Shown: positions 11,101 through 64,000, counted from the stretch's first letter. The stretch: 64,000 nt of DNA from Eubacterium sp. (GCA_024690665.1 JAILOU010000039.1:104779-168778), one strand, 5' to 3'. The notes: generated from the letters alone by a model not told the origin. Program-made: numbers and translations.

Positions 11101-11280
11101 AAGGGGAATAAATGAGTTATGAACTATGTATAATGGAAGTCGGTGAAAGACCGACGCTGTGTCTCAGCAACCGTAACAGTTTACAACAAAGCAATATGTC
11201 ACTGGGAGTAATTCTGGGAAGGCGCTTTGGAGGTTTTTGTAAATGAAGACTGGAGCCGGTAGACCTGCAAGTTCGTAAGC
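11101..11280 (+). ncRNA. cobalamin riboswitch
   Basis: The segment has the conserved parts of the B12 aptamer in order: GGAAGTCGGTGAAAGACCGAC (11135 onward), then CTCAGCAACCGTAA, then GTCACTGGG, then AGCCGGTAGACCTGC (11254-11268), which matches the consensus AGCCAGGAGACCTGC closely. A hairpin with eight T and a second hairpin with six T follow directly, consistent with transcriptional control by ligand-dependent termination. The only gene downstream is the Lys-tailed exported protein at 11385, so B12 or a related corrinoid should repress that protein. Edges are approximate. Confidence 0.92.
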
Positions 11281-11282
11281 AT

Positions 11283-11318
11283 CCTGTCATCTGAGGAAGT
11301 GGCAGCGGGCTTTTTTTT
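11283..11318 (+). terminator. riboswitch expression-platform terminator
   Basis: CCTGTCA pairs with TGGCAG..GG, with one bulge, and is followed by T8. It sits directly after the cobalamin aptamer, so it is probably the ligand-controlled terminator. Confidence 0.7.
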
Positions 11319-57942: not shown

Positions 57943-58137
57943 GTTTAACTCAGTCGGAGAAATCCCCCACCTCTAAGCGTTAGCGTAGGTGGGGGATTTC
58001 TCCGACTGAGTTAAACGCTCCGCGAGGATGCACACGGATTCGGACAGGAATTTGTCTGCTGAAGCAGACCCGAATCCGGCACGCAAGACTCGCGAGCGAG
58101 TCTTGACAAACGAGTTCTCAAAGGAGAACTCGTTTTT
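57943..58137 (+). repeat. structured dispersed repeat, copy 1
   Basis: A perfect 30-bp palindrome arm pair (57943-57972 and 57987-58016, beginning GTTTAACTCAGTCGG) with a 14-base loop is followed by a conserved stretch. That stretch has two further hairpins: CGGATTCGG...CCGAATCCG enclosing GTCTGC...GCAGAC, and CAAGACTCGC/GCGAGTCTTG. A last hairpin (AACGAGTTCTC/GAGAACTCGTT with T6) ends this copy at the 3' end of the beta-helix gene. From CCGACTGAGTTAAACGC to TCTTGACA it is nearly identical to the copy at 63864. No transposase is near. It may be a MITE or palindromic element, possibly related to IS200/IS605 ends. Confidence 0.85.
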
Positions 58138-58143
58138 TAGATA

Positions 58144-59244
58144 TTACCATTTGTATTTTTTGTTTTTAGATGCTGACAGTTTCGAAACTGAGGCTGTCTT
58201 TAAAGCGTTAGAAGCGCCGGCTTTACAGTATAACTTATTGGAACGAATGGTTGTTTTACCAAATCGGGAAGAAGAATGTGAATACATCAATAGTGCGTGT
58301 CGTCCACCCTTAATGGTATTGTTTTTAATCGTGTATTTTCCACCGGAGGCACCGGAACCAAAATATGTAATTGCCATGCCATCTGAATATGAGTCACGAC
58401 TGGTTGGAGTTGTGTTAATGATCGTGTTTCCTGTTACCGTCGCACCGGTTGTGTTAAATAAAGCTAAAGCTTCAGCAGATTTGCCGCGCAACTTACAATT
58501 TTTGACTTTGATATTCTTATGAAAATGATTTTTGTATTTGCCGCCATTAGCCGCTGTATAGTTTGCACATACGGCCCGGCTTCCAACGACATCGCATTTG
58601 CTGATGGTGATATTTGCACAGCATTTACCGTTGTGAACACCGGTTGTAGGTGCGGTGGCAGGTGCATCAATATCAATTTGAATCTGCTCTTCGTTACTGG
58701 TTGATTTTACTTTGCCATAACAGCGAATCTTGCAGTTTTTTATAGAAACATTCTTGCAGGCAATGAGCTCAAAGGTGTGTCCTTGATAAGTGCAGTACTT
58801 AATATTCATGTTTTTAAAGGTTACACCATTAACATGAGAAAGCTGGATGGCAGTCAGGGAGTGGCCGCTTTTTCCGTCGTAGCGCCAGATACCGCCGGTT
58901 ACAGTAGCATTTAATTTTTTGTATCCTTTAATGGAATAGTTACATTCCATGATTCGTCCGGTGGTGTAGATTTTGGCTTTCTTTGCATTGATTTTCCAAC
59001 CTTTTTCGAGATAAAGGGTGCTATCCAGATAATATTTCTCACCACTTACAAGTGTAACGCTACCGCATTGCTCTAATTCGTCATTAATATTATCAGAATC
59101 GCTTTCGGTAGAGTGCTCATCATCATCATTTTTTTCGTAGTAACTTGCTGAGTGAACGGTGCCGGCTGATGCATCTTTAGGAATAATAATTAAAAATAAT
59201 GCAAAAGCACATAAAGGCAGAAGTTTTAAGAGTGTCTTTTTCAT
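58144..59244 (-). CDS. secreted right-handed beta-helix protein
   Basis: I place the start at MKKTLLKLLP (59244), with GGAGGATC upstream; the longer ORF adds 20 residues without a site. The 366-residue product has a signal peptide (ends near DASAGT), an acidic stretch (NDDDEHSTESDSD) and then parallel beta-helix coils such as ISKCDVVGSRAVCANYT and ATVTGNTIINTTP, as in pectate-lyase-like and PbH1-repeat proteins. It could be a polysaccharide lyase or a surface binding protein; I see no clear catalytic set. No wall anchor is present. It is flanked downstream by repeat copy 1. Confidence 0.82.
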   Translation of the reverse strand: MKKTLLKLLPLCAFALFLIIIPKDASAGTVHSASYYEKNDDDEHSTESDSDNINDELEQCGSVTLVSGEKYYLDSTLYLEKGWKINAKKAKIYTTGRIMECNYSIKGYKKLNATVTGGIWRYDGKSGHSLTAIQLSHVNGVTFKNMNIKYCTYQGHTFELIACKNVSIKNCKIRCYGKVKSTSNEEQIQIDIDAPATAPTTGVHNGKCCANITISKCDVVGSRAVCANYTAANGGKYKNHFHKNIKVKNCKLRGKSAEALALFNTTGATVTGNTIINTTPTSRDSYSDGMAITYFGSGASGGKYTIKNNTIKGGRHALLMYSHSSSRFGKTTIRSNKLYCKAGASNALKTASVSKLSASKNKKYKW

Positions 59245-59381
59245 AGTCTGATCCTCCGTTAATGTTAATAATAGAATTATAAATTGGAGCAAAAGTACTG
59301 TCAAATATATGTATCTTATAGCTTGTGTAGAATTGAATTTATGCGATGTATGAGATATTATGAATTTAAGGAGTTACACAA

Positions 59382-59696
59382 ATGCAGGTATTAGAGCAAA
59401 TTGAGCAATTACGTCATAAGGCAAATGAAAATCAAAATTTAAGAAGACAAATCTTACAGACAAAATATCAAGATGATCCTCTGGTATCTTTTTGTAATAT
59501 TTGTCGCCAAGAAGGCTATGAATTATATCCGATGGACATCGTAGTAGCCGGAGAGGAACTGTATGCAAGAATGAAACGGTCAACGAACGGTGGCGGGGAG
59601 AATTCACCTGTGCTTTCCTATGAGGATGATATATATGAGATGCTGGTTGCAGCACTGAAACAGGTTGAAGAAGGAATAAAAATAATTGAAATTTAA
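59382..59696 (+). CDS. small Nif11-like protein
   Basis: The 104-residue product (AAGGAG upstream) has a helical N-terminal part where NLRRQILQTKYQDD...FCNICRQEGYELYPMD resembles the Nif11-like leader pattern (helix, then LAxxxGYxhs). It is followed by a Gly-rich KRSTNGGGENSP segment and an acidic helix (YEDDIYEMLVAAL). Nif11-like leaders guide peptide-modifying enzymes, but here the segment after the leader is too long and lacks a clear core peptide, so a precursor role is uncertain. It overlaps the next gene by 11 bases, so the two are translated together. Specific function unknown. Confidence 0.6.
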   Translation: MQVLEQIEQLRHKANENQNLRRQILQTKYQDDPLVSFCNICRQEGYELYPMDIVVAGEELYARMKRSTNGGGENSPVLSYEDDIYEMLVAALKQVEEGIKIIEI

Positions 59697-60630
59697 AATT
59701 GCAGTTATTTATCAAGGCGTATTATATAGTTGCTTTTTGGGTGTTGTATGCTTAATGTTATTGCTTGCAGAGGTGACGGGTGAAACGGAAATTATATTTC
59801 CGGAACTTGCTGCTATCGGATTGGGAATATTTTTATCGCCGAAACGTTCTTGGGCGACTAATAAAAAACGAATGTTGATTTTGCTTTCGCTAGCTGCGGT
59901 GATTGGTATATTGATTGTAAGATTTGTACCGGGACCGCAGTGGGGACAGATGTTGCTGGCTTATGCTGTCAGTCAATTGATGTTGCTTTATTCACGAACG
60001 ACATTTGCACCATTTATTTCTGCGATTGTATTGCCGGTTATGCTTGGTTCGGATTCAATCGTTTATGTGATATCTGCAATCGGGCTCACGGCATTTGTTT
60101 TAGGGATTACTTGGATTTTGGAACAGTTTAAAATCTGGGATAAAGAACCGTTCGTGCAAAGACAAAAGGCGACACCGATGGAATACTTAAAGGCGTTGGT
60201 TCGAATTATAATTATTGGGATTAGCATATATCTGGCATTTCGAATTGATATACAATATGCGGTTGCACCGCCTGTGTTGGTGGCGTTTACAGAATTTATG
60301 CGTCCGGGAGGACAGCCTCCACAAAAGCCGGTAAGAGTCTGTGTGTTTGTTGTGTTATGCAGTATGCTTGGAGTAATTTGTCGAATGGCGTTTGATGTGA
60401 ATTTTGTCCATTCGTTAATCCTGGCCGGTGCTTTTGCGGCGGTTGGAGTTTTGTTTTTGGTTCGATGGTTTAAATTATATATTCCACCGGCTGCAGCACT
60501 GGCAATATTACCTATGCTGATAGATGTCAATAAACTGATTTGGTATCCACTTCAGGTTGCCATAGGAATGAGTATTTTAACAGGTATTGCATTTTGGATA
60601 AACGGAAAACGTTTGGAAGGAAAGGGTTAA
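59686..60630 (+). CDS. integral membrane protein, HPP/FUSC-like
   Basis: The 314-residue protein (TTG start inside the end of the small gene, AAGGAA upstream) has eight to nine hydrophobic segments. A central loop carries PPVLVAFTEFMRPGGQPPQKPVRV, whose proline/glycine pattern resembles HPP-family or aromatic acid exporter-like permeases. It repeats in two halves. Substrate unknown. Coupling with the 104-residue gene suggests the two act together. Confidence 0.65.
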   Translation: MKFKIAVIYQGVLYSCFLGVVCLMLLLAEVTGETEIIFPELAAIGLGIFLSPKRSWATNKKRMLILLSLAAVIGILIVRFVPGPQWGQMLLAYAVSQLMLLYSRTTFAPFISAIVLPVMLGSDSIVYVISAIGLTAFVLGITWILEQFKIWDKEPFVQRQKATPMEYLKALVRIIIIGISIYLAFRIDIQYAVAPPVLVAFTEFMRPGGQPPQKPVRVCVFVVLCSMLGVICRMAFDVNFVHSLILAGAFAAVGVLFLVRWFKLYIPPAAALAILPMLIDVNKLIWYPLQVAIGMSILTGIAFWINGKRLEGKG

Positions 60631-60635
60631 ATATA

Positions 60636-60809
60636 TGGGACTTCGGAATCGGAAAAGTTCAAAAAAATATATTTGAAGATTCATGGGGCAATCAGGTTGT
60701 TATGCTGCAAGACCCGGACGGTCATCTGATAGAAGTAGCAAAAAAAGCGGAATGCGCAGATAATGAGGCAAAGAAAGATTGGGCTTTGTATGCAAAAGAT
60801 TGTATATAG
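60636..60809 (+). pseudogene. remnant of a VOC (glyoxalase-like) family gene
   Basis: After the membrane protein stop, a frame with WDFGIGKVQKNIFEDSWGNQ...MLQDPDGHLIEVA continues to 60809. The end PDGHLIEVA is the C-terminal metal-site motif of glyoxalase/bleomycin-resistance proteins. The N-terminal half is absent, and the listed ORF start at 60540 is inside the membrane gene. So this is a 3' fragment left by deletion or recombination. Confidence 0.6.
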
Positions 60810-60889
60810 GTATTATTTTTTGTATAATAGAATAGTAAGAAATACTGAATAATTAGATTAGAATGACTTAAAGTTGAGGGGGACCCAAG

Positions 60890-61552
60890 ATGAGAAATCA
60901 CATGTCTAGAATCGTGATTTTAGGGCTTGCTTTGATTTTGACAACAATAGTATTTACAGCGTGCGGCCAACAAGAAGATGAATTATCTGTTTCTTCACAA
61001 GAAAAAACGAAGCTTGCCGTTATATCGGATGAAACCACTGATGTTTCATCAACGGCAGAGCAAAGCAGTATGAGTAAAAAAGAACCAACCAGTTATAAAC
61101 TTGCTATAGAAGAATACATTATAGATAAGATTGGTATGTTTTTTGATGATAGCGATATATGTATTCCATGTATGAAGATTATTGCCACAGATAAAAGTGA
61201 TAAATCAGATATTAAAGCATGGGGAATCTATTGGATCTATAATTATAAAATCGAAGGCGATACATTAGTATGTGAGTCGGGGGGCTCGAATCCCGGACTG
61301 ATGCATGTGGTTGAGACGGATGGAGTATACCAGGCAAAATCATTTGAGATTGTATCGGATGGTTCTAAGCACGATGAGAGTGCCAAAAAAATCTTTGGAG
61401 AATATTATAAGAAGTTTATAAAGGCCTCTGAGAACGAAAAGGCAAATAAAAAAATCAGAGAAAAGGCCATTGTTAAGTATATTAAAGATAACCATCTTAA
61501 TGTAACAAAATACCGAGATGAAGGGGCAGATCCTGTTAAACTCGATTTATAG
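60890..61552 (+). CDS. hypothetical lipoprotein
   Basis: The 220-residue product has a lipobox signal (VFTACGQ, Cys ~25) and a strong GAGGGGG ribosome site. The mature part has a Ser/Thr/Glu-rich stretch, then a conserved-looking alpha/beta domain (YIIDKIGMFFDDSDICIPC, AWGIYWIYNYKIEGDTLVCESGG) and a Lys-rich helix. I recognise no family by name; similar lipoproteins of unknown role are common in gut Clostridia. Anchored on the outer membrane face. A terminator follows at 61563. Confidence 0.7.
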   Translation: MRNHMSRIVILGLALILTTIVFTACGQQEDELSVSSQEKTKLAVISDETTDVSSTAEQSSMSKKEPTSYKLAIEEYIIDKIGMFFDDSDICIPCMKIIATDKSDKSDIKAWGIYWIYNYKIEGDTLVCESGGSNPGLMHVVETDGVYQAKSFEIVSDGSKHDESAKKIFGEYYKKFIKASENEKANKKIREKAIVKYIKDNHLNVTKYRDEGADPVKLDL

Positions 61553-61873
61553 GGGAATATGATGAGACTTTCTATAACCAAGGTTATGGAAAGTCTTTTT
61601 TATAAAAGATAATTATTGCAAAACTTAGAGAATGGCTTGAAAAAATATTTGAGTTATTATATATTATTGGTGCAGAGGAGACTAACTATAGTTGCACTTG
61701 TGATAAGTGCTTATTTTTTTACACAGATGTTAGGTGACTCTAACACAAATAATGATAGCCGGCCATCTAAGTTATTAAACTATAGTTAATCTTAAGCGGA
61801 TAAGTTTCTTTCCCCGGCATCTGCCGGGGAAGAATTTATCATATGAATTTTGATTGGAAATGAGGTGTAGGTT
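61553..61873 (+). other. gene-free stretch with hairpins and a duplicated palindrome
   Basis: This 321-base interval holds a terminator (AGACTTTCTATAACC pairing with GGTTATGGAAAGTCT, then T6, 61563-61601), a second terminator-like hairpin (GCACTT/AAGTGC with T7, 61694-61719), two copies of the palindrome AACTATAGTT (61684-61693 and 61778-61787) and a strong GC-rich hairpin TTCCCCGGCA/TGCCGGGGAA (61809-61830) with pairing flanks, 33 bases before the methyltransferase RBS. No coding ORF was seen. Confidence 0.7.
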
Positions 61874-62671
61874 ATGGAATTACAACTAGGAGATGTACAG
61901 ACAACGGCATTAATACCATTGGTGATTAAAGCGAATGAGACGCAACGAAAGAATGCTCGCATTAACGATGTAAAGGCAGTTGAAATTGTTCGTTCATTAA
62001 ATGTTGATATGAATCAATATGATAAATTCATGTCTCATGAAGGGGTCGTTGCGCGTACAATTATGTTAGATCAGCAGCTTAAAAAGTTGATTTTAGATAA
62101 TCCGGATGCTGTCATCGTGAATGTTGGAGCCGGATTTGACGACCGGTTTTCCCGTGTGGATAATGGGTCGATTCTATGGTTTGATTTAGATCTTCCGGAT
62201 GCAATTAATGCCAGAAAAAAAGCCTTTTCTAATCAAGAACGTGTGACGATGATTGCCGGAAATGCTCTTAACAGTCAATGGTGTAAACCGGTTCAAGATG
62301 CAGTTGCCAACCGTTTTTCAAAACCAATCTTTCTTGCGGAAGGTCTTTTTATGTATCTGACAATGGAACAAATCAGAACTTTCTTGGATGTTTTGGTAGA
62401 AAATTTTCCGGATGGTGGGATGTTGATTGCCGAACAAAATCCAAAGATTATGGTAAAAAATGAAAAGCATCATGATACTGTAAAAAGCACTAACGCGCAT
62501 TTTAAATCAGGAACCGATTCTGGACAAGAGATTGCAGAATTGGTGGATGGTGTACATCTGGTAGAAGAACATAGCTTTAATGAAGAGATGCGAAAGTATA
62601 GCATGCGGGGGAAATTATTTGCACTGATATTGCCTAAGATGAATGATAGATGGGCGACATTTGCCTGGTAA
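61874..62671 (+). CDS. SAM-dependent methyltransferase, leucine carboxyl methyltransferase (LCM) family
   Basis: The 265-residue protein follows the LCM/PpmB pattern: VARTIMLDQQLKKLI, the SAM site VIVNVGAGFDDRF, the aspartate strand ILWFDLDLPDAI and FLAEGLFMYLTMEQI. Bacterial members methylate carboxyl or hydroxyl groups of small molecules, often in secondary metabolism. Start ATG with GAGGTG upstream. The flavin reductase gene follows within ~40 bases, so an operon is likely. Substrate unknown. Confidence 0.88.
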   Translation: MELQLGDVQTTALIPLVIKANETQRKNARINDVKAVEIVRSLNVDMNQYDKFMSHEGVVARTIMLDQQLKKLILDNPDAVIVNVGAGFDDRFSRVDNGSILWFDLDLPDAINARKKAFSNQERVTMIAGNALNSQWCKPVQDAVANRFSKPIFLAEGLFMYLTMEQIRTFLDVLVENFPDGGMLIAEQNPKIMVKNEKHHDTVKSTNAHFKSGTDSGQEIAELVDGVHLVEEHSFNEEMRKYSMRGKLFALILPKMNDRWATFAW

Positions 62672-62713
62672 TAGTTGCGCGTTTATCCAAGATGCAGTAT
62701 GATGCTTTTAATT

Positions 62714-63403
62714 ATGAAAATTACTATTATTCATGGTCAGAGTCATAAAGGCTCTACCTATCATATTGCACATAATCTCGCCGAAAGAATCGGAGGAGAT
62801 ATAATTGAATATTTTTTACCAAGGGATTTTGGTGAGTTTTGCATAGGCTGTACTAAGTGTTTTATGGAGCATGAACAACTGTGCCCTCATTATTCTAAAT
62901 TGTTGCCAATTACAAAAGCGCTAGATGAGGCGGATGTTATTATTCTTGCAAGTCCGGTCTATGTATATCATGCCACCGGTCCGATGAAAAGCTTTTTGGA
63001 TCATTATGGATATCGCTGGATGGTTCACCGTCCACAGGCAGCCATGTTTCAAAAGCAGGGGGTCTGTATCAGCACTGCTGCCGGTGCCGGCATGAAATCT
63101 ACCAATAAAGATATGGCGGACAGTTTGTTCTTCTGGGGAGTTGCCCGAATCTATAAGTATGGAATGCGGGTGGCAGCTGTTGATTGGAGCAAGATAAGTG
63201 CCACACGAAGACAGAAGATTGACAAGGCTCTTACCCACATTGCTGCTAAGATTGTAAGGCGGCAGGGAAGAGTGAAACCGGGGCTTAAAACCAAAGTTTT
63301 TTTTACTATTATGCGATTAATGCAAAAGAAGGGGTTTAATCCAAGTGATAATGAATACTGGAAACAGTATGGCTGGACAGGGACAAAAAGACCTTGGAAA
63401 TAA
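62714..63403 (+). CDS. NADPH-dependent FMN reductase / flavodoxin-like protein with Cys pair
   Basis: The start is taken as MKITIIHGQSHKGST by family pattern; no good ribosome site is seen at any in-frame start (62675 TTG and 62699 ATG are alternatives), so confidence in the start is low. The 229-residue protein has the flavin phosphate loop HGQSHKGSTYHIA, a FCIGCTKCFMEHEQLCPH cysteine set as in iron-sulfur flavoproteins, and the SPVYVYHATGPMKSFLDH motif. It likely reduces quinones, nitro compounds or chelates with flavin. The C-terminal ~60 residues are basic with one hydrophobic stretch. Confidence 0.82.
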   Translation: MKITIIHGQSHKGSTYHIAHNLAERIGGDIIEYFLPRDFGEFCIGCTKCFMEHEQLCPHYSKLLPITKALDEADVIILASPVYVYHATGPMKSFLDHYGYRWMVHRPQAAMFQKQGVCISTAAGAGMKSTNKDMADSLFFWGVARIYKYGMRVAAVDWSKISATRRQKIDKALTHIAAKIVRRQGRVKPGLKTKVFFTIMRLMQKKGFNPSDNEYWKQYGWTGTKRPWK

Positions 63404-63546
63404 AATATAAGATGTTAAAGAAACTCTTTTTAAGTTTGTCAAATAGACAGATTTAGGAAGGGTTTTTTGTTATGAGAAGATATGAAAAGTCAAGATAAAT
63501 ATGATAAAAATTTACTGTGTATAAGATTTTAAGAGGAGATGATTGT

Positions 63547-63868
63547 ATGAAAAAAATGACTTGTTTATTGGTAATTGCAATCTTTATCTTTGTACTTAGT
63601 GGCTGCGGTAAAACGGAAGTTACAAGTATGACGCCAAGATATTGAGTATCAGTATCCATATCAATACTGTTTAAATATCAGTTTCAACGAAGATGGGACA
63701 CCGGGAAGAGGTTCTGCAATCTTCCTTCATTGTTTTGGTGATCGATGTCCGTATACAGGTGGCTGCGTATCTATTCCGATGGACCAGATGTATTATGTGA
63801 TGCAACATGTTGCGAAGGACTGTGTGGTCGTAATTGATGAATTAGAAGATATGAACGGTGAATTTTAA
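63547..63868 (+). pseudogene. broken L,D-transpeptidase lipoprotein gene
   Basis: A 32-codon ORF (63547-63645, GAGGAG upstream) encodes a lipoprotein signal peptide (FVLSGCGK) and then stops. In the next frame (from ~63632) the sequence reads YCLNISFNEDGTP, then GSAIFLHCFG..CPYTGGCVSIP, the YkuD active-site pattern (His and Cys), and ends at TAA 63866. The intervening domain is missing, so the gene has lost most of its middle part and its frame. It was absent from the ORF track. Its stop codon lies inside the TTTAAC start of repeat copy 2. Confidence 0.72.
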
Positions 63869-64000
63869 CTCAGTCGGGGTACAAGCTCCGACTGAGTTAA
63901 ACGCTCCGCGAGGATGCACACGGATTCGGACAGGAATTTGTCTGCTGAAGCAGACCCGAATCCGGCGCGCAAGACTCGCGAGCGAGTCTTGACATGAGCA
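63864..64000 (+). repeat. structured dispersed repeat, copy 2 (cut by window end)
   Basis: Starts TTTAACTCAGTCGG (63864) and has a shorter first hairpin (arms 63864-63879 and 63886-63901 with a small loop) than copy 1. It then follows the same sequence from CCGACTGAGTTAAACGC through TCTTGACA (63994), with one difference (GGCGCG for GGCACG). After GACA the two copies diverge. The first hairpin therefore varies in its apical part while the rest is fixed. Confidence 0.85.

Follow-up and report, generated by a model that had tools for sequence, protein, structure and literature searches.

An apparently undescribed non-autonomous mobile element of the Lachnospiraceae that probably inserts in the manner of IS200/IS605

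The window analyzed here, a stretch of 64,000 nt from a Eubacterium sp. genome (G000), carries near its end two structured repeats that are almost identical except for their first hairpins, which raises the question of whether they are copies of a mobile palindromic element, of a structured RNA, or of both. The repeat is direct and covers 109 nt with 99% identity (58000-58108 versus 63886-63994). In comparison to shuffled sequences, copy 1 together with its downstream terminator hairpin folds with a z of -13.4 (-119.7 kcal/mol) and copy 2 with a z of -7.8. The sequence-only reading of the window, which had described such a repeat with constant outer arms and a differing apical part in the first hairpin, thus agrees with the measured structures: this hairpin has perfect 30-bp arms in copy 1 (57943-57972 and 57987-58016, with a loop of 14 nt) and a 17-bp stem in copy 2 (approximately 63864-63901). 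In aligned copies, the order from 5' to 3' is left flank TTTAA, hairpin P1, guide TTAAA, hairpins P2 (CGCTCC-GCGA-GGA(T)GCG), P3, and P4, and right end TTGAC. The positions of these parts are listed in Table 1.

Table 1. Features of the two element copies, in positions of the window.
Feature	Position	Strand	Basis
Copy 1, TTTAA as target and left flank (C_L-like), complement of the internal guide	57944..57948	+	logo of 94 copies; TTAA in empty sites; flank-guide pairing in 185 copies
Copy 1, element of 159 nt, with P1 in its long, perfectly palindromic form	57949..58107	+	boundaries from copy comparison and empty sites
Copy 1, P1, the variable first hairpin, with module B (CCCCCACCT..AGGTGGGGG) nested in it	57944..58015	+	repeat and fold analysis
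Copy 1, guide TTAAA immediately 5' of P2, the reverse complement of TTTAA	58011..58015	+	aligned copies; flank/guide pairs TTTAT/ATAAA and TATAT/ATATA in other subfamilies
Copy 1, P2 hairpin CGCTCC-GCGA-GGA(T)GC, T bulged	58016..58031	+	alignment and consensus structure
Copy 1, P3, a long stem whose asymmetric bulge is conserved (ACAGGAATTT)	58030..58083	+	fold, consensus structure; 7 compensatory pairs in P3 helix
Copy 1, P4 terminal hairpin CAAGACTCGCGAGCGAGTCTTG	58084..58105	+	repeat, consensus structure, covariation
Copy 1, right end TTGAC (C_R-like), which other subfamilies have as TTGAA	58103..58107	+	logo; subfamily copies
Terminator-like hairpin adjoining copy 1, flanking host DNA outside the element	58108..58138		fold; missing from other copies
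Copy 2, target TTTAA; TAA 63866-63868 closes upstream frame ..NGEF*	63864..63868	+	sequence, copy alignment
Copy 2, element of 125 nt in the short form, which at 130 nt including TTTAA is the most frequent one	63869..63993	+	repeat, copy comparison, logo
Copy 2, P1, short form without nested modules; guide TTAAA 63897-63901	63864..63901	+	fold, aligned copies
Copy 2, P2	63902..63917	+	sequence read by consensus structure
Copy 2, P4 and right end TTGAC	63970..63993	+	repeat, logo

The window ends together with contig C54 (168,778 nt), 7 nt past copy 2. As many further contigs of this assembly likewise end inside the element, it probably breaks the assembly. The proposal that the interval between the two copies is rich in remnants and was shaped by recombination is partly right: only two stretches of its genes have homologues in Eubacterium oxidoreducens, on two different contigs, and the region before copy 2 (63540-63868) contains fragmentary ORFs. 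There, a lipoprotein-like start ending in ..MTPRY* is followed by another frame with HCFGDRCPYTGGCVSIP, which we take to resemble an L,D-transpeptidase motif, and this frame terminates at the TAA of the copy 2 target. At 60631-60809, a short fragment (..SWGNQVVMLQDPDGHLIEVAKK..) without a complete gene is presumably glyoxalase-like. Elsewhere in the window, a cobalamin riboswitch was found at 11108-11286 (Rfam RF00174, 59.1 bits).

Copy number, spread, and core structure

Copies were counted with a 20-base core pattern (AACGCTCCGCGAGGATGNGCA) at up to 3 mismatches, with the reversed pattern as a control that had no match in the counted genomes. There were 45 copies in G000, 78 in E. oxidoreducens DSM 3217 (G001), 33 in Lachnospira multipara ATCC 19207 (G338), 24 in G321, 29 in G224, and 4 in G193, and 112 nt of the element were 100% identical between genera. 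A wider search with a covariance model of the 94-nt core matched 147 of the 397 Lachnospiraceae genomes and 133 of the 334 genera; in a sample of 391 Clostridia genomes, it gave six matches, five of them in Lachnospiraceae and one in another family. No match was found in the phage and plasmid records searched, and among the viral contigs searched the element matched on one contig. When the window and divergent copies were compared with Rfam, in strict and permissive mode, the element reached no family's gathering score, and within the open-licence papers searched, neither a description of the element nor its core sequence was found. This repeat is therefore neither confined to the two window copies nor an annotated Rfam element, the two outcomes named in the sequence-only reading as speaking against its view. 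We conclude that a real and family-wide element of the Lachnospiraceae has apparently gone undescribed.

The structure of the core is conserved. Under the consensus structure of the aligned copies, 98.1% of the cells pair in the 94-nt core, and 9 of its 29 pairs show compensatory changes on both sides. The covariation score was 0.233 versus 0.083 with shuffled alignments, none of 500 shuffles reached it, and control scores with slid partners were at most 0.034, which bears out the description of the repeat as structured.

Precise insertion and the internal guide

Filled and empty sites demonstrate that the element is mobile and define its exact boundaries. The clearest case is found in G028, a genome with four copies of an IS605-type insertion sequence (TnpA 97-100% identical). 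Two of these copies have an empty site, in which ..CGT(A/C)GTTATAT is directly followed by CGAGACGCAGGG.., and in the other two, which are near-identical to them (TnpA 97-98% identical), a divergent family member (CAGCTGG..ATTCTTGAA) is inserted between ..GTTATAT and CGAGAAGCAGGG... No base was lost or duplicated by this insertion, the TATAT was already there, and the guide of the inserted element is ATATA. In the filled copies (L369 on C65 and L377 on C67), the element lies between tnpA and tnpB and provides the last residues and the stop codon of TnpA. We considered whether this arrangement represents an autonomous form of the element, and rejected this as the sister copies show an insertion.

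E. oxidoreducens is empty at TTAA for two copies of G000 (L020/L220 and L015/L236; these junctions were read by hand, as aligner gaps were badly placed there), and at a third site (L034/L226), the TAA that ends the gene at the target is its native stop codon. The element inserts on the 3' side of a target of 4-5 nt, TTTAA in the window copies, which is present before the insertion and is not duplicated: over 94 copies no target duplication was detected, and the best z of the scan, 3.3 in about 1,500 windows, was taken as noise. Together with the dispersal of the copies, these sites support the mobile palindromic element that had been suspected. At L012/L228, the whole block TTAACTCAG..CTTGAC is inverted between unchanged flanks, which corresponds to two opposite insertions at the palindromic TTAA or to an inversion in place.

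The target is complementary to the guide. In 185 copies with a locatable left arm of P1, the guide TTAAA was accompanied by the flank TTTAA in 79 of 126 cases, ATAAA by TTTAT in 31 of 36, and ATATA by TATAT in three of four. Because copies with the guide TTAAA also have ATTAA, TTCAA, GTTAA, and other flanks, the flank is not simply copied along with the element. At the level of aligned sequences, this comparison shows complementarity of target and guide as well as their covariation between subfamilies. As a side aspect, two divergent members (L391 in G574 and L392 in G323) are located directly 3' of terminator-like hairpins, the T-tract of which is the flank that pairs with the internal A-run of the element.

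With TTTAA included, 56 of 94 boundary-defined copies have 130 nt and 17 have 192 nt; the remaining ones have other lengths, up to 255 nt. In the 192-nt form, module B (CCCCCACCT..AGGTGGGGG) is added and CTCAGTCGG is directly repeated, the 226-nt form additionally contains module D, and copy 1 of the window represents a third state of P1, in which the right arm perfectly complements the left arm through module B. P1 is able to vary because its outer stem consists only of target, guide, and a short constant part. The apical loop of P1 was found in both orientations among otherwise near-identical copies (L108 versus L001; L182), as would be expected if one arm of the palindrome served as the template for the other. 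Individual copies whose flank and guide match (TGTAA, TTGAA, and ATTAA) could point further, to a minimal single-stranded DNA transposon that retargets itself throughout the family: repair or template switching of P1 against itself would rewrite the guide to the new flank and shuttle nested hairpins, and target specificity and loop content would evolve within one hairpin. We regard this idea as tentative and less likely than not.

A candidate mechanism and its alternatives

As IS608 inserts exactly 3' of TTAC, which is kept in the left flank and pairs with a guide 5' to a hairpin foot (PMC5934647), it offers a model for the multicopy, non-coding, and gene-less element described here. We consider it probable, at about 70%, that this non-autonomous element works like IS200/IS605 members, with a single-stranded intermediate and guide-directed insertion by a candidate Y1 TnpA in trans. 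The single strand would be excised and re-inserted by this Y1 (HUH) TnpA, and the target would be recognized through its pairing with the internal TTAAA guide immediately 5' of P2. The right end (TTGAC or TTGAA) follows P4, the 5' foot of which (CAAG) pairs with it. P1 lies between target and guide, which form its outer stem, so that modules B and D can be gained, lost, or inverted in the loop. In the excised circle, the right end ..GAGTCTTGAC would be joined to the left end CTCAGTCGG.. (TTGAC to CTCAG). The single-stranded intermediate, TnpA as the enzyme, and the roles of P2-P4 are the parts of this scheme that we infer; the subterminal hairpins at both ends, P2/P4 and also P1, are visible in the element itself.

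Mobilization in trans by a Y1 TnpA is favored because of the IS608-like layout of target, guide, and ends, the TTTAA target shared with IS605-type elements of the family, the match of module B to the left end of such elements, and an association with a TnpA subtype: the element is carried by 20 of 36 genomes with the TnpA subtype of these IS605-type elements and by 127 of 361 others (p=0.014). Two aspects count against this link, namely the right end of the IS605-type elements (TTCAC/TTCAA versus TTGAC) and the fact that the short form without module B is the most dispersed one. Neither G000 nor its genus yielded a Y1 TnpA whose ends match those of the element; the Y1 genes of G000 belong to ordinary IS605-type elements with other ends. 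The early suspicion of an IS200/IS605 relation agrees with the insertion 3' of a guide-complementary sequence without duplication, but no RAYT/TnpA_REP partner turned up, and in G000 there was no Y1 gene with such ends.

This leads to the strongest alternative, in which the mover is not a Y1 enzyme but another recombinase or transposase that recognizes the folded ends, and the target pairing merely extends hairpin P1. Six element-rich genomes (G002, G370, G014, G307, G330, and G070) had no Y1 match, although most of these assemblies are fragmented and multicopy insertion sequences are easily lost from such assemblies. Furthermore, no transposase family recurs beside the copies, which also means that no autonomous version was found there, and the conservation of P3 and its bulge exceeds the known needs of an IS608-type end. 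We nevertheless consider another enzyme unlikely, as the observed insertion, on the 3' side of a short sequence that complements the guide and is not duplicated, follows the IS200/IS605 pattern, and the target duplication expected of DDE enzymes was not seen.

The genomic placement of the copies bears on a second alternative, a functional structured RNA (a 3'-UTR element, mRNA stabilizer, or sRNA) that would spread as a mobile element and be retained because of what its RNA does. Of the 37 E. oxidoreducens copies located outside ORFs, 14 coincide exactly with a stop codon, compared with 6.5% for TTTAA sites of this kind (p=3e-8), an expectation that is generous since it includes sites now carrying elements. 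Such a placement, the majority of copies being sense to the upstream gene, and a structure kept with compensatory changes would suit an RNA. However, a folded single DNA strand accounts for the same covariation, there is no Rfam match, the copies of G321 have no sense preference, and copies come and go between sister species, all of which make a retained RNA function improbable. Selection for harmless sites may contribute to this stop-codon excess, which is several-fold in relation to other non-disruptive TTTAA sites.

With respect to replication, 42 of 47 E. oxidoreducens copies are in leading orientation, with the element's top strand as lagging-strand template; as about 83% of the genes have the same orientation, gene direction is a confounder, and in contexts untied to it the ratio was 12:3 (p=0.018). 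In G321, only 10 of 19 copies are in leading orientation, and a replication-strand bias was therefore rejected as a general rule.

A DDE-type MITE, a BOX-like repeat, or a REP/BIME is very improbable: the element is small, intergenic, modular, and palindromic as is BOX (PMC3049150), but there is no target duplication and no transposase beside the copies, and the P2-P3-P4 core differs from REP hairpins. Two further candidates were rejected. An integron attC site (R'' RYYYAAC, R' GTTRRRY) fits the sequence of the TTTAA subfamily, but in the subfamilies with TTTAT and TATAT these positions read ..GATAAAC and ..GATATAC. As for a TnpB omega-RNA, neither G000 nor G002 had a match to the TnpB domain PF07282, and the core is, by eye, unlike an IS605-type right-end region.

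Rearrangements and relation to known systems

The element sits at rearrangement points between sister species. In G000, two direct copies (L017/L005, C47:1707-6622) flank about 4.6 kb that are missing at the counterpart in E. oxidoreducens (C23:7051-7394), and L034 shares its right flank, at 95% identity, with a different E. oxidoreducens copy. An element that occurs in more than one third of the searched Lachnospiraceae species, with up to about 80 copies per genome where counted, is of relevance for genome assembly, which it probably breaks, for rearrangements, and, in E. oxidoreducens, for stop codons, which it prefers. Its natural covariation of flank and guide would test target choice by base pairing, which in IS608 has so far been reprogrammed by engineering, and its subfamilies would supply ready-made guide/target pairs for programmable single-strand insertion.

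Among known repeats, BOX of Streptococcus pneumoniae is likewise short, intergenic, and modular, can contain an additional middle module, and forms stable hairpins. However, BOX has terminal inverted repeats and a target duplication (PMC3049150), and the element described here is unrelated in sequence and follows a different insertion rule. REP/BIME sequences with their RAYT are also high-copy intergenic palindromes, but the element is larger, has a three-hairpin core, and no RAYT gene was found beside its copies.

Similarities also exist to IS605-type insertion sequences of the Lachnospiraceae, such as those of L. multipara (G338:C11), G158:C19, and G273. Like the element, they have TTTAA as target, and the hairpin at their left end, AGAAATCCCCCACCTC..GGTGG, is 84-92% identical to module B (G338 and G158). 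Unlike the element, they encode tnpA/tnpB, end with TTCAC or TTCAA, and are devoid of P2-P4. With IS200/IS605 members in general (IS608, ISDra2), the element has in common the insertion 3' of a short sequence that is retained in the left flank, the lack of target duplication, terminal hairpins, a guide directly 5' of a hairpin foot, and a right end that resembles the target (TTGAC versus TTTAA here). It differs by having no gene, by a variable hairpin that bridges target and guide, by the conserved third stem P3, by a genus in which no autonomous partner with the same ends was found, and by a strand bias in one species only. In its target rule and the anatomy of its ends, the element thus appears to work like the IS200/IS605 family.
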